22,822 bases of DNA, taken from a virus. Location of the stretch: positions 1 to 22,822 of IMG/VR virus record IMGVR_UViG_3300015171_000092, one strand, 5' to 3'. The notes under the pieces are model-generated. The model saw nothing but the letters and a program-made list of their open reading frames with translations. It did not search any database and had not been told where the DNA came from. Below are positions 141 to 22,822 of this stretch, one piece after another. Both the position numbers and the translations under genes were made by a program. Every line of letters starts with the position of its first letter. The stretch's first letter is position 1.

Positions 141-1967
141 TTGACGCCCGAGCAAACACTAAAAGCCGTCGAAAAAGAGCATCGCGCGGAGGAATGGACG
201 CCGTACCCTGGCGCCCAAACCTTGGCGATGACGAGCCCGGCGCGCGAAATCTTCTTCGGTGGGGCTCGCGGCCCCGGCAAGTCCTGGCTCCAGCGCCTCT
301 GGCTCGCGCGCATGGCGGTCGAGGAGTCCAAGCCTGGCGTGCTGCGGTACCCGACGTATAAGGGCGCGATTTTGCGCTATCACGCGATCGACCTTCGCGA
401 CTGGCACAAGGAAGCAGAGATCCTGTATTGCGCGAAGCTGGGCGCGAAGCCGGCCGGCAACCCGCGCGAGTATAAATTCCCGGGCGGTCCCATCATCCGC
501 TCCGGCCACTTGCAGGATGGCGCGTACATCCACTATGTCGGGTGGGAAATTCACAAACTGGGGCTCGACGAAGCAACCCATTTGCCGACCGTGACGAATC
601 GCGAGACGGGCGTTCCGGAATCACCGGACTACATGCTGCTGAACAATGGCTCCGTCCGCCTGAGTCCCGATGGACTGCCGCAATCGTTTCTCACCGGCAA
701 CCCTGGATTTAAGGGCGACCGCTGGGTGAAGCATCGTTTCATCAAAGTTTTCAGGAACGGTGAACTCGTCCCGCCGCGGACCCCGTTCCGTGACCCGGTT
801 TCCGGCGCGATGCGCATTTTCATCAATGCGACTGTCTTCGACAACCCCTGGATTCTCCAGAACGATCCTGGCTACGTCAAGAGCCTCATGGAGCTCTCGC
901 CGACCAAGCAAAAGGCTTGGATTTACGGCGATTGGGACGCTTACGAGGGACAGTTTTTTGACTTCGACCCCGTTCGGCATGTGATCGAACCCGAACAGGC
1001 GGCCGAAGCGATACCGCCCCATGTTTACCGCTGGCTATCTTGTGACTGGGGCTATTCGCACCCTTGCGCGGTTCACGGATATGCGCAGGGGCTTGATGGG
1101 CGCGTGCATGTCTTCCGCGAATTAGCGTTCGAGGGGAAGACCGGCAGTTTCGAAGTCGGAATGCAGATCGCGAAAGCGTTTCTGGCTGAAATAGAAACCC
1201 TGCCCGACAATTCGTTGACGCTGTACCTCTCGCATGACGCCTTCCACCAGGAAGACGCGGGTGATCGGCGCGTGGACACAATGCGCGCCGGCATTCAGAC
1301 AGTGCTCGGGCCACAGAGTTGCTTCATTCTCGAAATGAACGAGGACGAAAAGACGGAAGCGATGAGAGATCCGGACGTTGCCGTGCGGCAAATGAACGTC
1401 CGGCGTGCGCAGTCCACTCGCGGATATGGAATCACCATCTGCCGGGCCGACAAAAACTCGGTCGCTGGCTGGGATTACATGCGCGAACTTCTCAGGACGG
1501 AACAGGTGGTGATCCAAGGCGAGCCCGACGCGGCTATTGTCCAACGGTTACGCGGAAATCCGAACGGTGAAGCGCTGGTAGCGAACTACCTCCAGGGGTT
1601 CAACCAGCGGGCCGAAGTGCTGCCCAAGATCCTGATTCATTCGTGCTGCAAGCGCCTGGTAGAGACGATTGGCGAGATGCAGCATGACCCGAAGGACCCG
1701 GAGAAAATGCTGAAGGTAGACGGCGACGATTTCGTTGACTCCCTAGCTTATGGATGTATGGCCCATAGGAATCAACAACACGCCATGCCGCTCGCCTATT
1801 TCGTCGGGCACCAAATCGAAGAGGCATTCCGAGGTCGTCCGATCGACATGTCGTCCGTCCATCTCATGCATCTTCACGCGAAATCTAAATTTGAGCGCGA
1901 AAACGGCAGCGGCCAACCTATGAGGCTTGGGAGATTTGCCGGTCGAGGGAATCTTGCCGTTCAGTAA
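141..1967 (+). CDS. terL: terminase large subunit (packaging ATPase/nuclease)
   Basis: The 608-residue product is the DNA-packaging motor of a tailed phage. It pumps DNA into the prohead through the portal and cuts the concatemer. The N-terminal ATPase shows a Walker A loop GARGPGKS at residues 41-48, a Walker B LGLDEATH with D143/E144, and a coupling-motif-like FLTGNPG near 183-189. The C-terminal RNase H-like nuclease shows three expected acidic sites: SCDWGYSHP (D302), LSHDAF (D366) and VDGDDFVDSLAYG near residues 548-560. The length is normal for the family. The start is TTG at 141. No ATG lies in frame before residue 30, which is too close to Walker A to be the true start. No good Shine-Dalgarno sequence is visible, so coupling to the upstream frame is likely. 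The last 15 codons overlap, tail to tail, the antisense HNH gene. Confidence 0.95.
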   Translation: MTPEQTLKAVEKEHRAEEWTPYPGAQTLAMTSPAREIFFGGARGPGKSWLQRLWLARMAVEESKPGVLRYPTYKGAILRYHAIDLRDWHKEAEILYCAKLGAKPAGNPREYKFPGGPIIRSGHLQDGAYIHYVGWEIHKLGLDEATHLPTVTNRETGVPESPDYMLLNNGSVRLSPDGLPQSFLTGNPGFKGDRWVKHRFIKVFRNGELVPPRTPFRDPVSGAMRIFINATVFDNPWILQNDPGYVKSLMELSPTKQKAWIYGDWDAYEGQFFDFDPVRHVIEPEQAAEAIPPHVYRWLSCDWGYSHPCAVHGYAQGLDGRVHVFRELAFEGKTGSFEVGMQIAKAFLAEIETLPDNSLTLYLSHDAFHQEDAGDRRVDTMRAGIQTVLGPQSCFILEMNEDEKTEAMRDPDVAVRQMNVRRAQSTRGYGITICRADKNSVAGWDYMRELLRTEQVVIQGEPDAAIVQRLRGNPNGEALVANYLQGFNQRAEVLPKILIHSCCKRLVETIGEMQHDPKDPEKMLKVDGDDFVDSLAYGCMAHRNQQHAMPLAYFVGHQIEEAFRGRPIDMSSVHLMHLHAKSKFERENGSGQPMRLGRFAGRGNLAVQ

Positions 1968-2448
1968 GTCGCCGACGCGCTGCTCGATACGCAGCGCTTG
2001 CGGCGTTACGGCAGGCGCGGCACGCTCTCGCGCCTACTCGTGGATAAAGGTTATCGCCGGAATACGGGTGGCCTTTGGGGCAATGAGTTTTTAATGCAAA
2101 ACGTAGTCCGACCTCGCCGCGCTCACAGTTCACTTGGTGCGTAACGGGCTCTAGGTGCGCAGGATTAACGCAGGCATGATTGCGGCACAAATGGTCCAGA
2201 TCAAGGCCATCGGGAATCCTTCCGAGAGCAAGTTCATACGAGAAACGATGAGCGCGATAACTTCTAATTCTCCCGGCCCCGTAGTTGACCGGGAACATTC
2301 CATATCCGCGTCGGTCTTTACCGGCCAACCAAATCCAACACGATGTGCCGTTATAGGAAAGCGTTTCGGAGGCCGCATATTTCATCCGAAACCGATCAGT
2401 AGTACTTTGTCTAGGCTTCGTGAATGCACGCGGTGTCATGTCCAACAT
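1918..2448 (-). CDS. HNH endonuclease, free-standing, antisense
   Basis: The 176-residue protein is a zinc-dependent HNH nuclease of the type found as free-standing homing-like genes in phages. The order is: CWIWLAGKDRRGYGMF (37-52), common before HNH_3-type domains; RAHRFSYE with H67; the core LDLDHLCRNHACVNPAHL (82-99) with H86, N95 and H98 and metal-type Cys88/Cys93; N107; then a second finger CPKGH...C..C (C123, H127, C143, C146). It is read against all flanking genes. It fills the whole gap between terminase and the next gene, and its last codons overlap the terminase 3' end by 50 bp. A hand count over 2161-2460 gives 51% GC, lower than the surrounding structural genes, which fits acquired DNA. 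The start is ATG at 2448, with another ATG at 2439. No strong ribosome site is seen. Confidence 0.88.
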   Translation of the reverse strand: MLDMTPRAFTKPRQSTTDRFRMKYAASETLSYNGTSCWIWLAGKDRRGYGMFPVNYGAGRIRSYRAHRFSYELALGRIPDGLDLDHLCRNHACVNPAHLEPVTHQVNCERGEVGLRFALKTHCPKGHPYSGDNLYPRVGARACRACRNAASAAYRAARRRLTERQDSLDRQISQAS

Positions 2449-16963: not shown

Positions 16964-18442
16964 GTGAGTTTTTTCAAAAGCGGCGCGACCAACCAAGGGC
17001 AAGACCAGATCAACCAGAACCGTAATCTCATTTACGGCCAGGGCTCGACCCTGAATCAGAACGCGCAGGATCGAAGCAACGCCTACTACGACAAGGCGCA
17101 GGGCTACAACAATCAGGCCGATCAAGCGTATGCGCCCTTGGTGAATGGGCAAGGTGGCTATACCCCTGACCAAGCGGGCAAGATCCTCAACCAAGGCGGC
17201 CTGAATGGCCTCCCGCTCACCGATCAGGAAAAGACCGCGATGACGGGCGACCCCAACGCGGGCCGCCAAACCGAACAGGATCTCAACAAGAACTATCTCG
17301 ACGCCGCGGAAGCCCAAAGTATCAAAGGCGACCAGTCCGGCATCCAGGCGGGGCTCGGCCAGGTCAACGATGCGGTTGACCCGGCCTCGGTTGCGACGTT
17401 CACGCAGAATACGCGCCTAACTCCGCAGATGCAGGATCAGATTGCCACAGAAGGGGCGCGCTCGGCGACGAACGTAGACCATGCCGCGATGGACTCCAAC
17501 ATGGAAGCGGCTCGCGCTTCTGGTGCCGACCCGCTGGGCATGGCTGGTTATACGGATCGCGCCAACCGGCACGCACAGCAGGACGCCGCGAACGCTGCTT
17601 CAAGCGCCCGCGTGAATGCGATGCAGGTTGCCGCCGGGCGCGAGGGGAATATCCTCGGCGCGAATCAAACGCTGGCGGCGCAAAAGGCTCAGGCCGCCGG
17701 AACCAATCTCAGCGCACAGCAGCAGATGGAGCAAAATATGTCGGATCGCGCAAAGTTCGGCGCGACGAACCGCCAGCAGACCCTTGCCTCCAATCAAGCC
17801 ACCTTGTACGGCCAAGCGCAGAATGCCGATCAGGTTGCGGCGAGTCGCGCCACCGGCATCGCGCAGAATCGGCAGGGCCAGGGGCAGTACATCGACACCG
17901 CTACCTCCGGCCGCGAGACGAACATCGCGAACGAGAACCAGAACCAAGCCTCCGAAGGTCGCAACTATCTCACCAATCAGGTCGGGGGGAACAACGCTTC
18001 GGCGCAAACTGAGCAAGGCATTCAGTCCGGCGTCTACGGGACGCAGACGGGCGCCGCCGACCAGAACAACGCCAACCAAATCAATGCCGACAAGCGGCAG
18101 AGCGGGTTTTCGAATCTGCTCAGCGCGGCGGGGCAAGCGGCTGGGGCTGCGGTCACGAAATATTCCGACGTCCGCCTCAAGGAAAACATCGTCCTACTGG
18201 GCCAACTAAACGGGGTCAACGTCTACGAGTATTCGTTCAAGGGCAACCCGGAGCGCGAAGTGGGCGTGATGGCGCAAGAGGTTTATGAGCGCTTCCCCGA
18301 AGACGTGATCGTGGGCGGCGACGACCCCAATGTGTCTCCGTGGCGAGTGAAATACGGGACCCTGGTACCGAAACTGCTTACCTCAAGCGACCCGAAGGTG
18401 CTTCCAGGTTCTCCGATACAGGATCGCTTCAATGTTGAATAG
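16964..18442 (+). CDS. internal virion/ejection-type protein with C-terminal S74-like chaperone domain
   Basis: The 492-residue protein begins at GTG 16964. Residues 1-390 are Gln/Asn/Ala/Gly-rich helices (GQGSTLNQNAQDRSNAYYDK; QNRQGQGQYIDTATSGRETN), typical of proteins held inside the head and ejected with DNA. Residues 401-472 form a Peptidase_S74/intramolecular chaperone-like domain: SDVRLKENIVLLG, NVYEYSF, EVGVMAQEVYERFPEDVI, WRVKYGTLVPKLL. This domain usually sits at the C-terminus of fibres, trimerises them and may cut itself off. Here it is on a protein whose body looks like an internal virion protein. Family resemblance stops at residue 472, and two codons later the antisense HNH gene begins to overlap. 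The last 20 residues are therefore encoded within the HNH DNA and the C-terminal helix of the domain seems replaced. Confidence 0.75.
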   Translation: MSFFKSGATNQGQDQINQNRNLIYGQGSTLNQNAQDRSNAYYDKAQGYNNQADQAYAPLVNGQGGYTPDQAGKILNQGGLNGLPLTDQEKTAMTGDPNAGRQTEQDLNKNYLDAAEAQSIKGDQSGIQAGLGQVNDAVDPASVATFTQNTRLTPQMQDQIATEGARSATNVDHAAMDSNMEAARASGADPLGMAGYTDRANRHAQQDAANAASSARVNAMQVAAGREGNILGANQTLAAQKAQAAGTNLSAQQQMEQNMSDRAKFGATNRQQTLASNQATLYGQAQNADQVAASRATGIAQNRQGQGQYIDTATSGRETNIANENQNQASEGRNYLTNQVGGNNASAQTEQGIQSGVYGTQTGAADQNNANQINADKRQSGFSNLLSAAGQAAGAAVTKYSDVRLKENIVLLGQLNGVNVYEYSFKGNPEREVGVMAQEVYERFPEDVIVGGDDPNVSPWRVKYGTLVPKLLTSSDPKVLPGSPIQDRFNVE

Positions 18443-18952
18443 CGTGCAGCCGTACTCGAGGGCGAGCGCTCGCCGGGGAATCCGAGCGGCGCCCTTCTTT
18501 AAGATTTCCCTCACTTGCGCCTCGGTCAGTTTGGCATCGGGATGGGCTTCCCCGATGGGATACCGCTCTCGATGAAGATTTCGGCCATTGCGTTCGCCGC
18601 GCGCCATCATCTCGGGGTGAAGCATGGCGCAATTTCGAGCACGGCCCTTGGCAGCCATATCGGTAAGATTATCGAGGTCCGTTCCCATGAACAGATGCGC
18701 AGGATTTACGCACGGTGGATTGTCGCAACGGTGGCAAATCAGTTTTCCCAGTGGGTCCGTCCCCGTGGATATGAAAAAAGATATGCGGTGCGCGCGATAA
18801 CCCTTTCTGGCAAAAATCCCGTACCCCTTGGGGGACAAGGTGCCACGCCAGAGCCAGCAATCATCCGGCCCAGCTTTCTCGATTTTTTGCCAAAACCGCG
18901 CACGGAGTCTTTCGGACAGAACGGGCAACGGTTTAACGGCCACGATGCTCAT
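18383..18952 (-). CDS. HNH endonuclease with C-terminal helix-turn-helix-like region, antisense
   Basis: The 189-residue protein is a second free-standing HNH nuclease, related in plan to the one after the terminase. CWLWRGTLSPKGYGIF (32-47) and YRAHRISFF (52-60) lead to the core LICHRCDNPPCVNPAHLFMG (71-90), with H74, N83, H86 and Cys76/Cys81. After a basic linker, GEAHPDAKLTEAQVREIL (134-151) to YRRTWKHL (179-186) matches the DNA-binding helix-turn-helix repeat often appended to homing HNH proteins. It has no second zinc finger, unlike the first HNH. It is read against the structural genes, fills the gap between two ejection genes, and overlaps the 3' end of the S74-domain gene by 60 bp. 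The start is ATG at 18952 with no clear ribosome site. It is likely a selfish homing element. Confidence 0.88.
   Translation of the reverse strand: MSIVAVKPLPVLSERLRARFWQKIEKAGPDDCWLWRGTLSPKGYGIFARKGYRAHRISFFISTGTDPLGKLICHRCDNPPCVNPAHLFMGTDLDNLTDMAAKGRARNCAMLHPEMMARGERNGRNLHRERYPIGEAHPDAKLTEAQVREILKKGAARIPRRALALEYGCTLFNIEAILYRRTWKHLRVA
18461..18474. repeat. 14-bp perfect palindrome next to the S74 gene stop
   Basis: GGCGAGCGCTCGCC is fully self-complementary and lies 18 bases after the stop of the S74-domain gene, within the 3' part of the HNH gene. It could fold as a short cruciform or hairpin or be a chance result of codon use. No U run follows on either strand. Confidence 0.4.
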
Positions 18953-18988: not shown

Positions 18989-20560
18989 ATGGCCTTCAAA
19001 AGACAAACCAGCTTCATCGACGACCCCGATCAGGAAGACTATCTGAACGCAGGGACGGCGACGCCGAAATATGTCGCGCCGGACCCCGTGGCTACGCCGA
19101 CATATTTGCGGATGGACACGCCAGCGCAGAGTCCCGTGAACCCCGCGCCGGACGGCTCGGTTCCTGGGGCCTCGTGGGATGACACCGGGACTCCCAATAA
19201 GCCGCCGACGGCTGCGGAGCTCCGGCAGCAAGTAGCCGATCTCGCGGCCCAACGCCCGGAGAAGGGCAAGGCTGGTATCTGGCGAACGCTGGCCGCAATT
19301 GGGGCCGGAACGGCGATTGGGTATGGGAGCCGGGGACCACAGGGCCAGGAGAACGTCAATAACGTAGTTGGGGCCATCATGTACCCCGGCTACACCCGCA
19401 AGGCGGCCGAATGGTCAACCAAAATGAACGATACGGCCACACAGGCCGAGCAAGCGGAGAAGATCGAGTCTGATGCGCGCGCCGGTAAGATGGGTGACGC
19501 GAACTTGGCGCACGTCAACGCGCAAACGAGGCTCGAAAACGCGCAGGCCGACAATTACAACTTGCCGAACGCTCCGCCCTCTCCGGAGTGGGACCTGAAA
19601 GATGGCGTTCTCTTAGAAAAACGAAGCGGCCAAGTAAAGCCGTCGCCTATTCCGGTGCAACCGAAAGCTCAGGGCGACGCCAACATGCAATTGGGCATTG
19701 CGACGTGGAAACGCATACCGGGGAACGAGGGCAAGGAGCCCGGCCCGGATGACATCGCGCATATTCACCAGATTTTCAACCCCGTCAACCCCGCTGAAAC
19801 GGACACCCAGTTAGCGATCCGGGCGGCGGGCGGTATCAGCGGCAATAAGGCGGTCGATGCTCTTACTCCGCCACTCGCTAAGGCTGCGCTGGATGCCAAG
19901 AGGGAGCGGCCAGAGCGCCCGCCCAACGAAGCCGCGCAAAAGGGCCAAGCTATCAACCGCGCATTCGTTGATTCCGGCAACGACTGGAACAAAGTGCTCG
20001 ACAATGTGCGCGCCGGGAAGTACACGGACTACGCCGGAGACATCGCCGAGCATGCGCAGAAGATGACGCAGTTGAAGCCGGACGCGCAGCGCAAGGTTGT
20101 AGCGGCCGACACCACCGCGCAGCAAGTTCAGGCCGCTATTGACGGGATCGACGAAGTTACAAAGGCGCATCCTGATCTAGTTGGTCCGGTGACGCAACAC
20201 CCATTGAATGCTCTCAACCGGCGCGTTCAAACCTTCGCCGGGAGTGAGCCTGCCGACGTGGGTACAGTAGACTCCATCCTCGAAACGGCCGCCGCGCTTC
20301 AGCCCGGCCAACACAACTTCCGCTCCATTGGCGCTCTTGCTGATTTCAAAAAATCGCTCGGCATTGACCCGCGTACAGGCAAGGCGGATGGCTCTCGCGC
20401 GTGGCTCGCTAACCCCGAAAAGGCGAAGGCTGCCCTCAAGGCAGTTCTCGACTTCAATCAGCGGTTGAAAGATAACACGTTGAAAGAAGCCGGGCAGGGC
20501 TCTCGACAGGTCGCGCCGAACACCGCTCCGGCACAGGCCGATCCACTCGGAATTCGTTAA
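18989..20560 (+). CDS. internal virion/ejection-type protein
   Basis: The 523-residue protein has a disordered Pro/Asp-rich N-terminus (about 1-75), then a charged helix and a small hydrophobic Gly/Ala segment, WRTLAAIGAGTAIGYG (about 98-113), which could insert in a membrane. Long Ala/Gln/Glu/Lys-rich helices follow (about 135-190 and 300-400), and a conserved-looking C-terminal part contains GIDPRTGKADGSRAWLANPEKA. This composition and its place between the S74-domain protein and the giant last gene fit a DNA-ejection protein stored in the head. No enzymatic motif is seen. GGGGGAG about eleven bases upstream serves as ribosome site for ATG 18989. It ends one base before the next ATG, so the two are probably co-translated. 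Confidence 0.65.
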   Translation: MAFKRQTSFIDDPDQEDYLNAGTATPKYVAPDPVATPTYLRMDTPAQSPVNPAPDGSVPGASWDDTGTPNKPPTAAELRQQVADLAAQRPEKGKAGIWRTLAAIGAGTAIGYGSRGPQGQENVNNVVGAIMYPGYTRKAAEWSTKMNDTATQAEQAEKIESDARAGKMGDANLAHVNAQTRLENAQADNYNLPNAPPSPEWDLKDGVLLEKRSGQVKPSPIPVQPKAQGDANMQLGIATWKRIPGNEGKEPGPDDIAHIHQIFNPVNPAETDTQLAIRAAGGISGNKAVDALTPPLAKAALDAKRERPERPPNEAAQKGQAINRAFVDSGNDWNKVLDNVRAGKYTDYAGDIAEHAQKMTQLKPDAQRKVVAADTTAQQVQAAIDGIDEVTKAHPDLVGPVTQHPLNALNRRVQTFAGSEPADVGTVDSILETAAALQPGQHNFRSIGALADFKKSLGIDPRTGKADGSRAWLANPEKAKAALKAVLDFNQRLKDNTLKEAGQGSRQVAPNTAPAQADPLGIR

Positions 20561-20561
20561 A

Positions 20562-22822
20562 ATGCCGACACTCGAAGAACTCGGGCGGAAGGTCAAGGCT
20601 AAATTCCCCGGCCAATACGATGATCTCTCTGACATCGACTTGGCTACGCGCGTAAAAGCTAAGCACCCTGGCGCGTATGATGACTTTACTTCCTCCGCGA
20701 TCCCCCCCAACCCGAGCGACAGCATCCCCGCCGCCAAGCCGCCCGTGCCGACAGAACTCCAGGGACCGGCGCCTTCGCGGTTATCCAGAGCCGTAACCAA
20801 CCTCCCCTACTCCGCTTTCAATTCCGTCGTTAATACGCTAAAAGGTCCACAGATGGGGGGCGACGATACTCTTCCGCCTAGCAATGGAGACAATAGGTCG
20901 GGCCTGGATAAAATCGGAGATTTCTTAAAGCATCCGATAGACAATACTCTCGATTGGGCAGCCGATGATCCGGTTGGCGCAGCGCAGCAGGCCGTCATGT
21001 TAGGCAAAGGGGCAGTTGAAGCCGCTCCCGTCGTTGCCGAGACGGTTAGGAGTGCCGCTCCGAAGGTCGTTGCGGTCGCGAAAGGCGCAGCGCAAGGCGC
21101 GAAAGAGGGCGCGCTATCCACCAGCGAAGTACCGGGGCATTCGTATGCCGCGCGCGCGGCCAAAGCGCTCGGTGTCGATAAAGTCCCAGCGGTTGCGTCT
21201 TCTGCTGTACTCGGCAAGTACGGCGCACATCTCCTATTTGGGCCGGAAGCCGCGCCGATTGGCGAGGCTGTCGGCGCGGTTGCGCCAATCGTTCGCGGCG
21301 CATGGCGCGGTGGCAAGCAAGCGCTTGAGGACTTGCGGACTCCGCCATCCGTCGAAGTGATCCACTCTGCGTCTTGGCCTCCAGAAGAACCCGCGACGAC
21401 CGAAGTAACACATTCGGCATCATGGCCGCCCGCTGAACCGCCTGACGACGGTGGCGGATGGACGACGCACTCGGCTTCCGTTGAGAAGCCACGCGAAGAC
21501 GCGCCCATGCCTACGTCTAACGCCAAGCGCACCGCCGCTCCCGCCCCGGCTGAAACCCTTCCGTCCCAGTCCATCTTGGACCGCCTCAAGATGACGGTCG
21601 AAGATTTCAATGCGCTCCCGGCGGACGGGAAAGCTGAAGTGCTGGCGATGGATCAGAGTATCCAGTCTCCGGTGTCGAAACGTCCGGCACCACCCGTCGA
21701 TCTGGCTACGCCTCCGTCGGTCGAGCAAGCCCCCGAACAGCCCTCGGCGCCGCCGATGACGCCAAAGCAGAGAATGGACGTGGAGCGAGCCGCCGGGATC
21801 GACCCACGCACCGGTAAGCCGATGGTGGTCGCTGCGCAAGAGCCGCCCGTAGTTGCGCCCGCAAGCGGTCCGGCGCCCATTGGGGATCTAGCGTCACATA
21901 ACGGGTACTCAATTCCAAAGGATTTCGGCACGAATGAGGCGAGCGGGGGGGCTGTACTTCCAGGACATACAGCCATACGTAGCAAAGGTGTCCATTCCGC
22001 CGGGTTCAACCCTGAAACGGGAGTGCCGGAAATTCACTTCAATAACGGCGGGCTCTATCGCTACCCCAATTTGCCGCCGCAGGAACTTACAAACGCGCTT
22101 GCCGATGCTCCGTCGATGGGCAGTTGGGTCCGGGAGAAACTTCGCGGCAACCCAATATGGCACGCGGGTTACCAGAAGGTTCAGCTACCTAATCCGAGCG
22201 CACCCGCGCTCCCTGGGGTCGAGCCCGGAGTTCCGCCGGCGGCCGATGCCGTTGCGCAGGCCGGCGATGCTGCGCCAGTTCCGCAGCCACAGCCACCGGC
22301 TCCAGCGCCGCCCATTAGCGCCGCGCCCGCGCCACGTTCCGGTGCGGAGTTCCCGCCCTCGAATACTGTCGTGGATATTCCCACCAATCGGATTAAGGTT
22401 GATCCAGCACGATTCCAATTCAAGGCTAACGTCGGGCAGGGCGGCGCGGGCGAGGAGTTGCGCGGCGTTCAAAGCTACGATCCGAAAAAGGGCGGCGTAC
22501 TCAGCGTATGGCGCGATCCGGCAGACGGCGAGACTTACGTCGCCAACGGACATAACCGCTTAGCTCTCGCAACGCGGACAGGCGCGCCGACAGTACGGGC
22601 ACAATATCTCGACGCCGCGAATGCGACAGACGCCCGCACTCAGGCCGCGCTCATCAATATCGCTGAGGGTCGCGGCGATGCAGTGGACGCAGCGAAGGTA
22701 TTTCGGGACAGCGGCATGGGAGCGGCGGACCTCGAACGCGAGGGCATTTCGCTCAAGGGCGAAAAGGCGCGACAGGGGCTCGCATTGGCGAATCTCGACC
22801 CCCACTTATTCGGCAAGGTTAT
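20562..22822 (+). CDS. polyvalent protein, virion cargo type (KTSC and DdrB-like ParB domains), truncated by the window
   Basis: The frame is open from ATG 20562 to the window edge (753 complete codons, no stop), so the protein continues beyond. The order is: two tandem copies of an N-terminal module ending in PGQYDDL and PGAYDDF (1-42), a Pro-rich stretch, Ala/Val helices (about 145-255), HSASWPP repeats (267-306), another Pro-rich linker, a KTSC domain (467-530: VHSAGFNPETGVPEIHFNNG, GLYRYPNLPPQELTNAL, SMGSWVREKLRG), and a DdrB-like ParB-superfamily domain (about 603 to end: VVDIPTNRI, YVANGHNRLALA at 660-671, NIAEGRGDAVDAAKVFRDSG). Such strings of domains define the polyvalent proteins of phages and conjugative elements, thought to enter the new host with the DNA and act in conflict or DNA handling. 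It follows the ejection genes with one-base spacing, consistent with packaging in the virion. Confidence 0.85.
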   Translation, partial: MPTLEELGRKVKAKFPGQYDDLSDIDLATRVKAKHPGAYDDFTSSAIPPNPSDSIPAAKPPVPTELQGPAPSRLSRAVTNLPYSAFNSVVNTLKGPQMGGDDTLPPSNGDNRSGLDKIGDFLKHPIDNTLDWAADDPVGAAQQAVMLGKGAVEAAPVVAETVRSAAPKVVAVAKGAAQGAKEGALSTSEVPGHSYAARAAKALGVDKVPAVASSAVLGKYGAHLLFGPEAAPIGEAVGAVAPIVRGAWRGGKQALEDLRTPPSVEVIHSASWPPEEPATTEVTHSASWPPAEPPDDGGGWTTHSASVEKPREDAPMPTSNAKRTAAPAPAETLPSQSILDRLKMTVEDFNALPADGKAEVLAMDQSIQSPVSKRPAPPVDLATPPSVEQAPEQPSAPPMTPKQRMDVERAAGIDPRTGKPMVVAAQEPPVVAPASGPAPIGDLASHNGYSIPKDFGTNEASGGAVLPGHTAIRSKGVHSAGFNPETGVPEIHFNNGGLYRYPNLPPQELTNALADAPSMGSWVREKLRGNPIWHAGYQKVQLPNPSAPALPGVEPGVPPAADAVAQAGDAAPVPQPQPPAPAPPISAAPAPRSGAEFPPSNTVVDIPTNRIKVDPARFQFKANVGQGGAGEELRGVQSYDPKKGGVLSVWRDPADGETYVANGHNRLALATRTGAPTVRAQYLDAANATDARTQAALINIAEGRGDAVDAAKVFRDSGMGAADLEREGISLKGEKARQGLALANLDPHLFGKV

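Follow-up and report, generated by a model that had tools for sequence, protein, structure and literature searches.

Some phages are known to inject giant multidomain proteins, which poses the question of how the effectors of such proteins stay with the injected DNA. A gene that bears on this question lies at the end of a 22,822-bp (22.8-kb) viral record of IMG/VR, the whole of which was analysed here and is referred to as the window. The giant polyvalent-type gene (20562..22822; window coordinates are on the + strand unless marked otherwise) runs off the end of the record, leaving 753 codons present and the 3′ end missing. We think it reasonably probable that this frame encodes the N-terminal portion of a polyvalent protein delivered with the virion, whose ParB-like module would load on DNA and hold effectors there.

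A giant gene cut off by the contig end

No stop interrupts the frame at 20562-22820, whose 753 codons run to the end of the record; it starts 1 nt past the stop codon of the preceding ORF. When the window was shuffled 300 times, the longest open frame reached 342 codons, in support of the stop-free frame described in the initial annotation, which had been made from the sequence alone. We looked for a rightward extension of the contig, and its last 23 bases matched no other IMG/VR contig. ORFs holding relatives of its ParB region reach 4,155 aa, and the frame in the window is probably about the first third of a very large phage protein. Hydropathy analysis revealed no membrane segments in this protein and almost none in its relatives, and two consensus promoter matches inside the ORF are at chance level. 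A Pro-rich linker of the translated protein contains a short repeat, HSASWPPxEP (21357..21491), present in two complete copies plus a partial one.

At residues 474-529 (21981..22148), a KTSC domain (PF13619) was identified with a Pfam E-value of 2.8e-8 and a score of 33.8 bits, above the curated cut-off of 25. A search of viral contigs found no close relatives of it, and weak matches were found in three phage records only. Together with the ParB-fold domain of the window and the further domains of its relatives, this domain, also named in the initial annotation, bears out the polyvalent architecture proposed there. A Pfam search found no effector or LPD domains among the 753 aa present of this cut-off gene.

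A separate ParB-fold family continuing into an HTH domain

The ParB/Srx-fold N-terminal domain (N-domain) of the window protein covers residues ~603-703 (22368..22670), as assigned by homology, fold match and a sequence profile against the PDB. It possesses an FQFK box, an NGHNR box (22545-22559) and an invariant Asn (22656-22658), and is followed by the first part of a ParB-type helix-turn-helix (HTH, or M) domain at residues 707-753 (22680..22820), which was delimited by alignment to the copy in the related contig L004 and is cut by the contig end. Of the ~320-aa module composed of the N-domain and the HTH, the window contains the initial ~155 aa. The NGHNRLALA segment (residues 662-670) and the subsequent NIAEGRGDAVDAAK helix (residues 699-712) are both present as first read, among the conserved positions. 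The module profile matched 61 proteins in all. The FQ, K, W, GHxR, the following Asn and a later Asp are kept in 60 of 60 aligned proteins, the window included, with active-site-like residues among these invariant positions, and several of the FQ[FY]K, W, NGHxR, N and D positions are invariant or nearly so across the 60 relatives.

The domain had been called DdrB-like. A ParB-fold domain is indeed present, but the assignment to the ddrB-ParB family (PF18763) did not hold. This model gave no match at E-values up to 10 in the window, nor in 13 relatives, whereas P1 DdrB, as the positive control, scored 2.1e-39. Comparison of the family profile with the P1 DdrB sequence via hhalign yielded a probability of 1%, and the box reads NGHNR in the window against SGNGR in P1 DdrB; the ddrB-ParB identity was therefore rejected. 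Of the refuting conditions named in the initial annotation, this missing ddrB-ParB match is the one that came true. The general models PF02195 (ParB_N) and PF17762 (HTH_ParB) also miss the window domain and its relatives, and NCBIfam gave no match to the window domain. By PHROGs, the ParB region of the window falls in the C-terminal portion of phrog_21, which is a family of portal proteins (E 5.5e-52). The window domain is thus a member of a separate and uncatalogued ParB-fold family, whose domain leads into an HTH of the ParB type.

The fold was predicted with AlphaFold2 on the L004 copy (pLDDT 84), 65% identical to that of the window where the two overlap, and not on the truncated copy of the window. 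A Foldseek search with this model hit Noc with an E-value of 3.3e-6 over 222 columns, covering both the N-domain and the HTH. The Z-scores of the model are 9-10 to ParB/Noc and 7 to Srx; by VIA, Z was 9.0 for 7nfu, with 193 residues aligned at 4.4 Å. Residues 115-222 of the model match the DNA-binding domains of Noc and Spo0J, and the HTH part alone gave a Z-score of 6.2 to Spo0J-parS. Because HTH domains are small helical bundles, the structural score of the module is in part unspecific. In the same register as the structural match, a structure-free sequence profile aligned both domains with Noc (E 0.0011) and with ParB (E 0.006). As judged from the predicted model, the module belongs to the ParB/sulfiredoxin fold superfamily, with the N-domain followed by the HTH as in the ParB/Noc clamps, and it looks like a DNA-loading molecular switch.

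Compared to the CTPase clamps Noc, ParB and KorB, the module shares the predicted order of domains, the G..R of box II and the N of box III. The ParB boxes GERR and ENxxR are aligned as NGHxR and xN, respectively, with the Gly, Arg and Asn kept and both Glu lost. Moreover, the window family differs from these clamps in escaping the two general models and in occurring in virion-type proteins. The retained residues make a nucleotide pocket likely as far as the alignment goes, whereas the loss of both Glu means that a ParB-like CTP hydrolysis is not implied. According to a section heading of a 2025 survey (PMC12704722), nucleotide specificity is not reliably predicted from sequence.

The ParB-fold domains of polyvalent proteins have been argued to be NTP-regulated DNases (PMC5512222), and the invariant His of NGHxR, within a ParB/Srx superfamily fold, could serve catalysis. 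The module might accordingly be an NTP-regulated nuclease or nickase that, once injected, cleaves or nicks the DNA of the host or of the phage. We consider this unlikely, given that HMM search and profile comparison both place the module outside the DdrB family and that it runs on into a ParB-type HTH, suggesting DNA binding. P1 DdrB and the window giant are both late phage proteins with a fold of the ParB/Srx superfamily; however, their boxes differ, and because our family is a different one that extends into an HTH, the DNase reading of DdrB is not transferable.

The module in giants, on portals and alone

We found the module in 26 contigs of IMG/VR, in 34 contigs from prokaryotic genomes and in several phage isolates, and it occurs in three settings. 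It resides within giants of 1,287-4,155 aa; it forms fusions with three kinds of portal (L007, full-length phrog_21; L033, phrog_113; L034, Portal_Mu); or it stands nearly alone, in proteins of 331-398 aa. Stand-alone copies are found away from portals (L043, L045, L050) and in cyanobacterial genomes. The C-terminal ~320 aa of phrog_21 portals are the same module as in the window, but fused to a portal, whereas the window copy lies within a giant bearing an N-terminal tag and a KTSC domain. A further portal-ParB join (L029, 2129-5251) was left out as fusion evidence, for it is probably an assembly chimera, with the ParB box region missing and the join falling in a GRGES word.

The giants differ in their cargo, which includes a methylase in L004, an FtsK gamma domain in L005, a zeta-toxin-like (kinase) domain in L006, a histidine phosphatase in L009, and GGDEF plus LPD38 in L010. 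The giant of Ruegeria phage 45A6 (ANH49087.1, 3,912 aa) combines a window-type N-terminal tag and the ParB module in one protein, and also carries helicase, methylase and GNAT domains and LPD38. Like the window giant, it is the last gene of its cluster, with a GNAT-profile gene upstream; it differs in being full-length, in these additional domains and in having no KTSC match. This protein best indicates what the missing part of the window gene may hold. Effector domains, raised in the initial annotation as a possibility beyond the edge, occur in the complete relatives as methylase, helicase, zeta-like kinase, GGDEF, FtsK-gamma and phosphatase domains, and since these relatives carry them, effectors past the contig end of the window are likely.

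Two further regions were observed in the giants. A domain of ~75 aa (VSFESDVDKAAYIAAQ...; residues 757-840 of L004) recurs in 12 giants, in which it precedes or follows the ParB module, the other carriers being L005, L011, L012, L017, L020, L022, L028, L030, L031, L049 and L052. Pfam does not match it, and it is a candidate new polyvalent-associated domain. A mostly helical C-terminal module of ~740 aa is conserved in five giants (L004 13034-15253; L005 12293-14602; L006 12200-14593; L008 12167-14566; L009 11639-13960). For the L004 copy, 50,697 phage records yielded no relative and PHROGs no match, an iterated HMM gave no link of the module to other giants, and its AlphaFold2 model (pLDDT 46) is too poor to use.

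The direct fusions to portals, together with the position of the giant as last gene of the late cluster, could also be accommodated by a structural or packaging role. The module would then bind DNA in the capsid, such as the end located at the portal, with the giant serving mainly as an ejection channel that replaces T7 gp15/gp16. In P-SCSP1 cyanophages, a ParB giant (ULF50148.1 in Prochlorococcus phage P-SCSP1u) occupies the place of the T7 internal core proteins. On the basis of size and location, the authors of that work proposed genes for internal virion proteins (PMC9860041); that the genes they name include the ParB giant is our own reading of their map. Nevertheless, the enzymatic domains in many giants favour effector delivery, and the stand-alone copies are located away from portals. 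We therefore hold a structural role to be rather doubtful, although it is not exclusive of DNA loading by an injected giant, the explanation that we prefer.

Gene neighbourhood and link to the virion

As proposed at the outset, the giant lies at the end of a late virion gene cluster, with TerL, tail and S74 genes upstream and conserved synteny. A GNAT acetyltransferase gene (PF13302; 16464..16961) serves as the syntenic marker of the cluster. It is followed by an Ala/Gln/Asn-rich ORF of 492 aa (16964..18442) with a C-terminal Peptidase_S74 chaperone domain (PF13884, E 7.7e-9) and weak matches to tail-fibre/virion PHROGs. This ORF directly follows the GNAT gene, at a place expected for an internal virion protein; the S74 self-cleaving chaperone domain is usually found on tail fibres. 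The 523-aa ORF directly upstream of the giant (18989..20560) takes the position of an internal virion protein, an assignment by position for an ORF with no homologue in Pfam, PHROGs, tblastn against isolated phages or profile search. These two genes between the GNAT gene and the giant are without informative homologues. Searches with the major capsid protein retrieved no relatives, and tblastn of the window GNAT against isolated phages none either. Between the late genes, two minus-strand ORFs, 18383-18952 (-) and 1918-2448 (-), contain HNH-type Cys/His motifs (CHRCDNPPCVNPAHL, DHLCRNHACVNPAHL) and look like free-standing HNH homing endonucleases.

A GNAT gene also precedes the giant in L004, L005, L006, L008, L009 and L070. 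By profile (E 2e-4 to 1e-3), it was detected upstream of the giant in the Burkholderia phages BcepMigl and DC1 and in Ruegeria phage 45A6. Burkholderia phages of the Bcep22-like group display the gene order acetyltransferase, virion-associated proteins, DarB-like giant. In one of them, JC1, the 4,515-aa giant gp69 was detected by mass spectrometry in purified virions with 51 unique peptides (PMC9144972). In addition, L010, which has the same ParB module, and the DC1 giant share a C-terminal LPD38 region (E 1e-6, 803 columns). Virion delivery of the window giant is thus supported by the portal fusions and by the synteny of GNAT, late genes and giant that reaches JC1; by this indirect analogy to a giant proven by mass spectrometry, the window giant is probably delivered with the virion.

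The stand-alone copies in cyanobacterial genomes would be compatible with a giant that is never injected and acts late in the infected cell, for instance in assembly or genome segregation, its position reflecting late expression only. The portal fusions and the virion-proven JC1 giant in the same slot speak against such a role, which we deem highly improbable.

A putative model for DNA loading by an injected giant

Sequence-based architecture, module homology, the L004 fold match, synteny and the effectors of complete relatives enable us to propose a putative model. The phage would be of the short-tailed type, with the giant as the last gene of its internal/ejection protein cluster. The giant would be packaged in the particle and then ejected along with the DNA. 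Afterwards, the ParB-like module, comprising the N-domain and the HTH, would most likely bind a nucleotide and load on the incoming phage DNA. We infer that the module tethers the downstream effectors, which in relatives are methylase, helicase, kinase and others, so as to keep them on that DNA. Anti-restriction and early take-over functions would thereby act in cis. Such behaviour is reminiscent of P1 DarB (reviewed in PMC5512222), which acts in cis and protects only the DNA that was packaged in the same virion.

That polyvalent proteins exist, are encoded among late genes and can contain ParB-fold domains is already known (PMC5512222). The window giant resembles described members such as P1 DarB, JC1 gp69 and DC1 gp67 in being a giant multidomain protein among late virion genes, with a GNAT gene upstream and with methylase, helicase and LPD38 in its complete relatives. 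In contrast, its KTSC domain and its ParB module of N-domain plus HTH are not described there. The 2025 survey of ParB folds across phages (PMC12704722) started from PF02195, outside which our module family falls, and makes no mention of portals, virions or polyvalent proteins. In the open-access journal articles searched, no account of the module was found. If the model is true, portals and injected giants equipped with a DNA-loading module of the ParB type would directly answer how effectors are retained on injected DNA, and the ParB switch fold would be extended to virion proteins.

Duplicated motifs at the N-terminus

The N-terminal tag of the window giant (residues 5-45; 20574..20696), shared with other large phage proteins, consists of two copies of a unit of ~16-20 aa (KVKAKFPGQYDDLSDIDL and RVKAKHPGAYDDF). 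Its duplicated unit within the first 45 aa reads KAKFPGQYDDLSD and KAKHPGAYDDF. Large phage proteins whose bodies are unrelated, several of which occupy the same slot, have duplicated motifs of this KAKYPGxYDD type at their extreme N-terminus; the carriers are the window, L002, L003, L069-L072 and L075-L078, and the records KT820175, OL762410, MG592581 and MN698244. A duplicated short motif that is exceptional for its protein occurs within the first 70 aa in 22 of 58 large proteins of this set, against 2.9 expected, although these proteins are non-independent and the binomial P-value hence makes the excess look stronger than it is. The same repeat test for residues 71-140 was positive in 4 of the 58. 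The tag of the window itself falls narrowly outside the repeat threshold (0.066), because the HSASWPPxEP repeat of the same protein scores higher. The idea that a motif marks neighbouring virion proteins of the same genome was rejected, as no excess over other genomes was seen.

We conjecture that the duplicated motifs are candidates for a virion-targeting signal. A broader, tentative and by our estimate improbable proposition is that tailed phages carry a distinct family of ParB-type NTP switches, with N-domain, HTH and NGHxR box, on portals or injected giants; these switches would load on the exiting DNA and retain the injected effectors there, the giants being recruited to the particle by their duplicated N-terminal motifs. 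The motifs duplicated at the N-termini of other giants differ from that of the window and include FDADSFMA, DIFDQVA, VDGMRITGPG, DPWAALGFKP and others.
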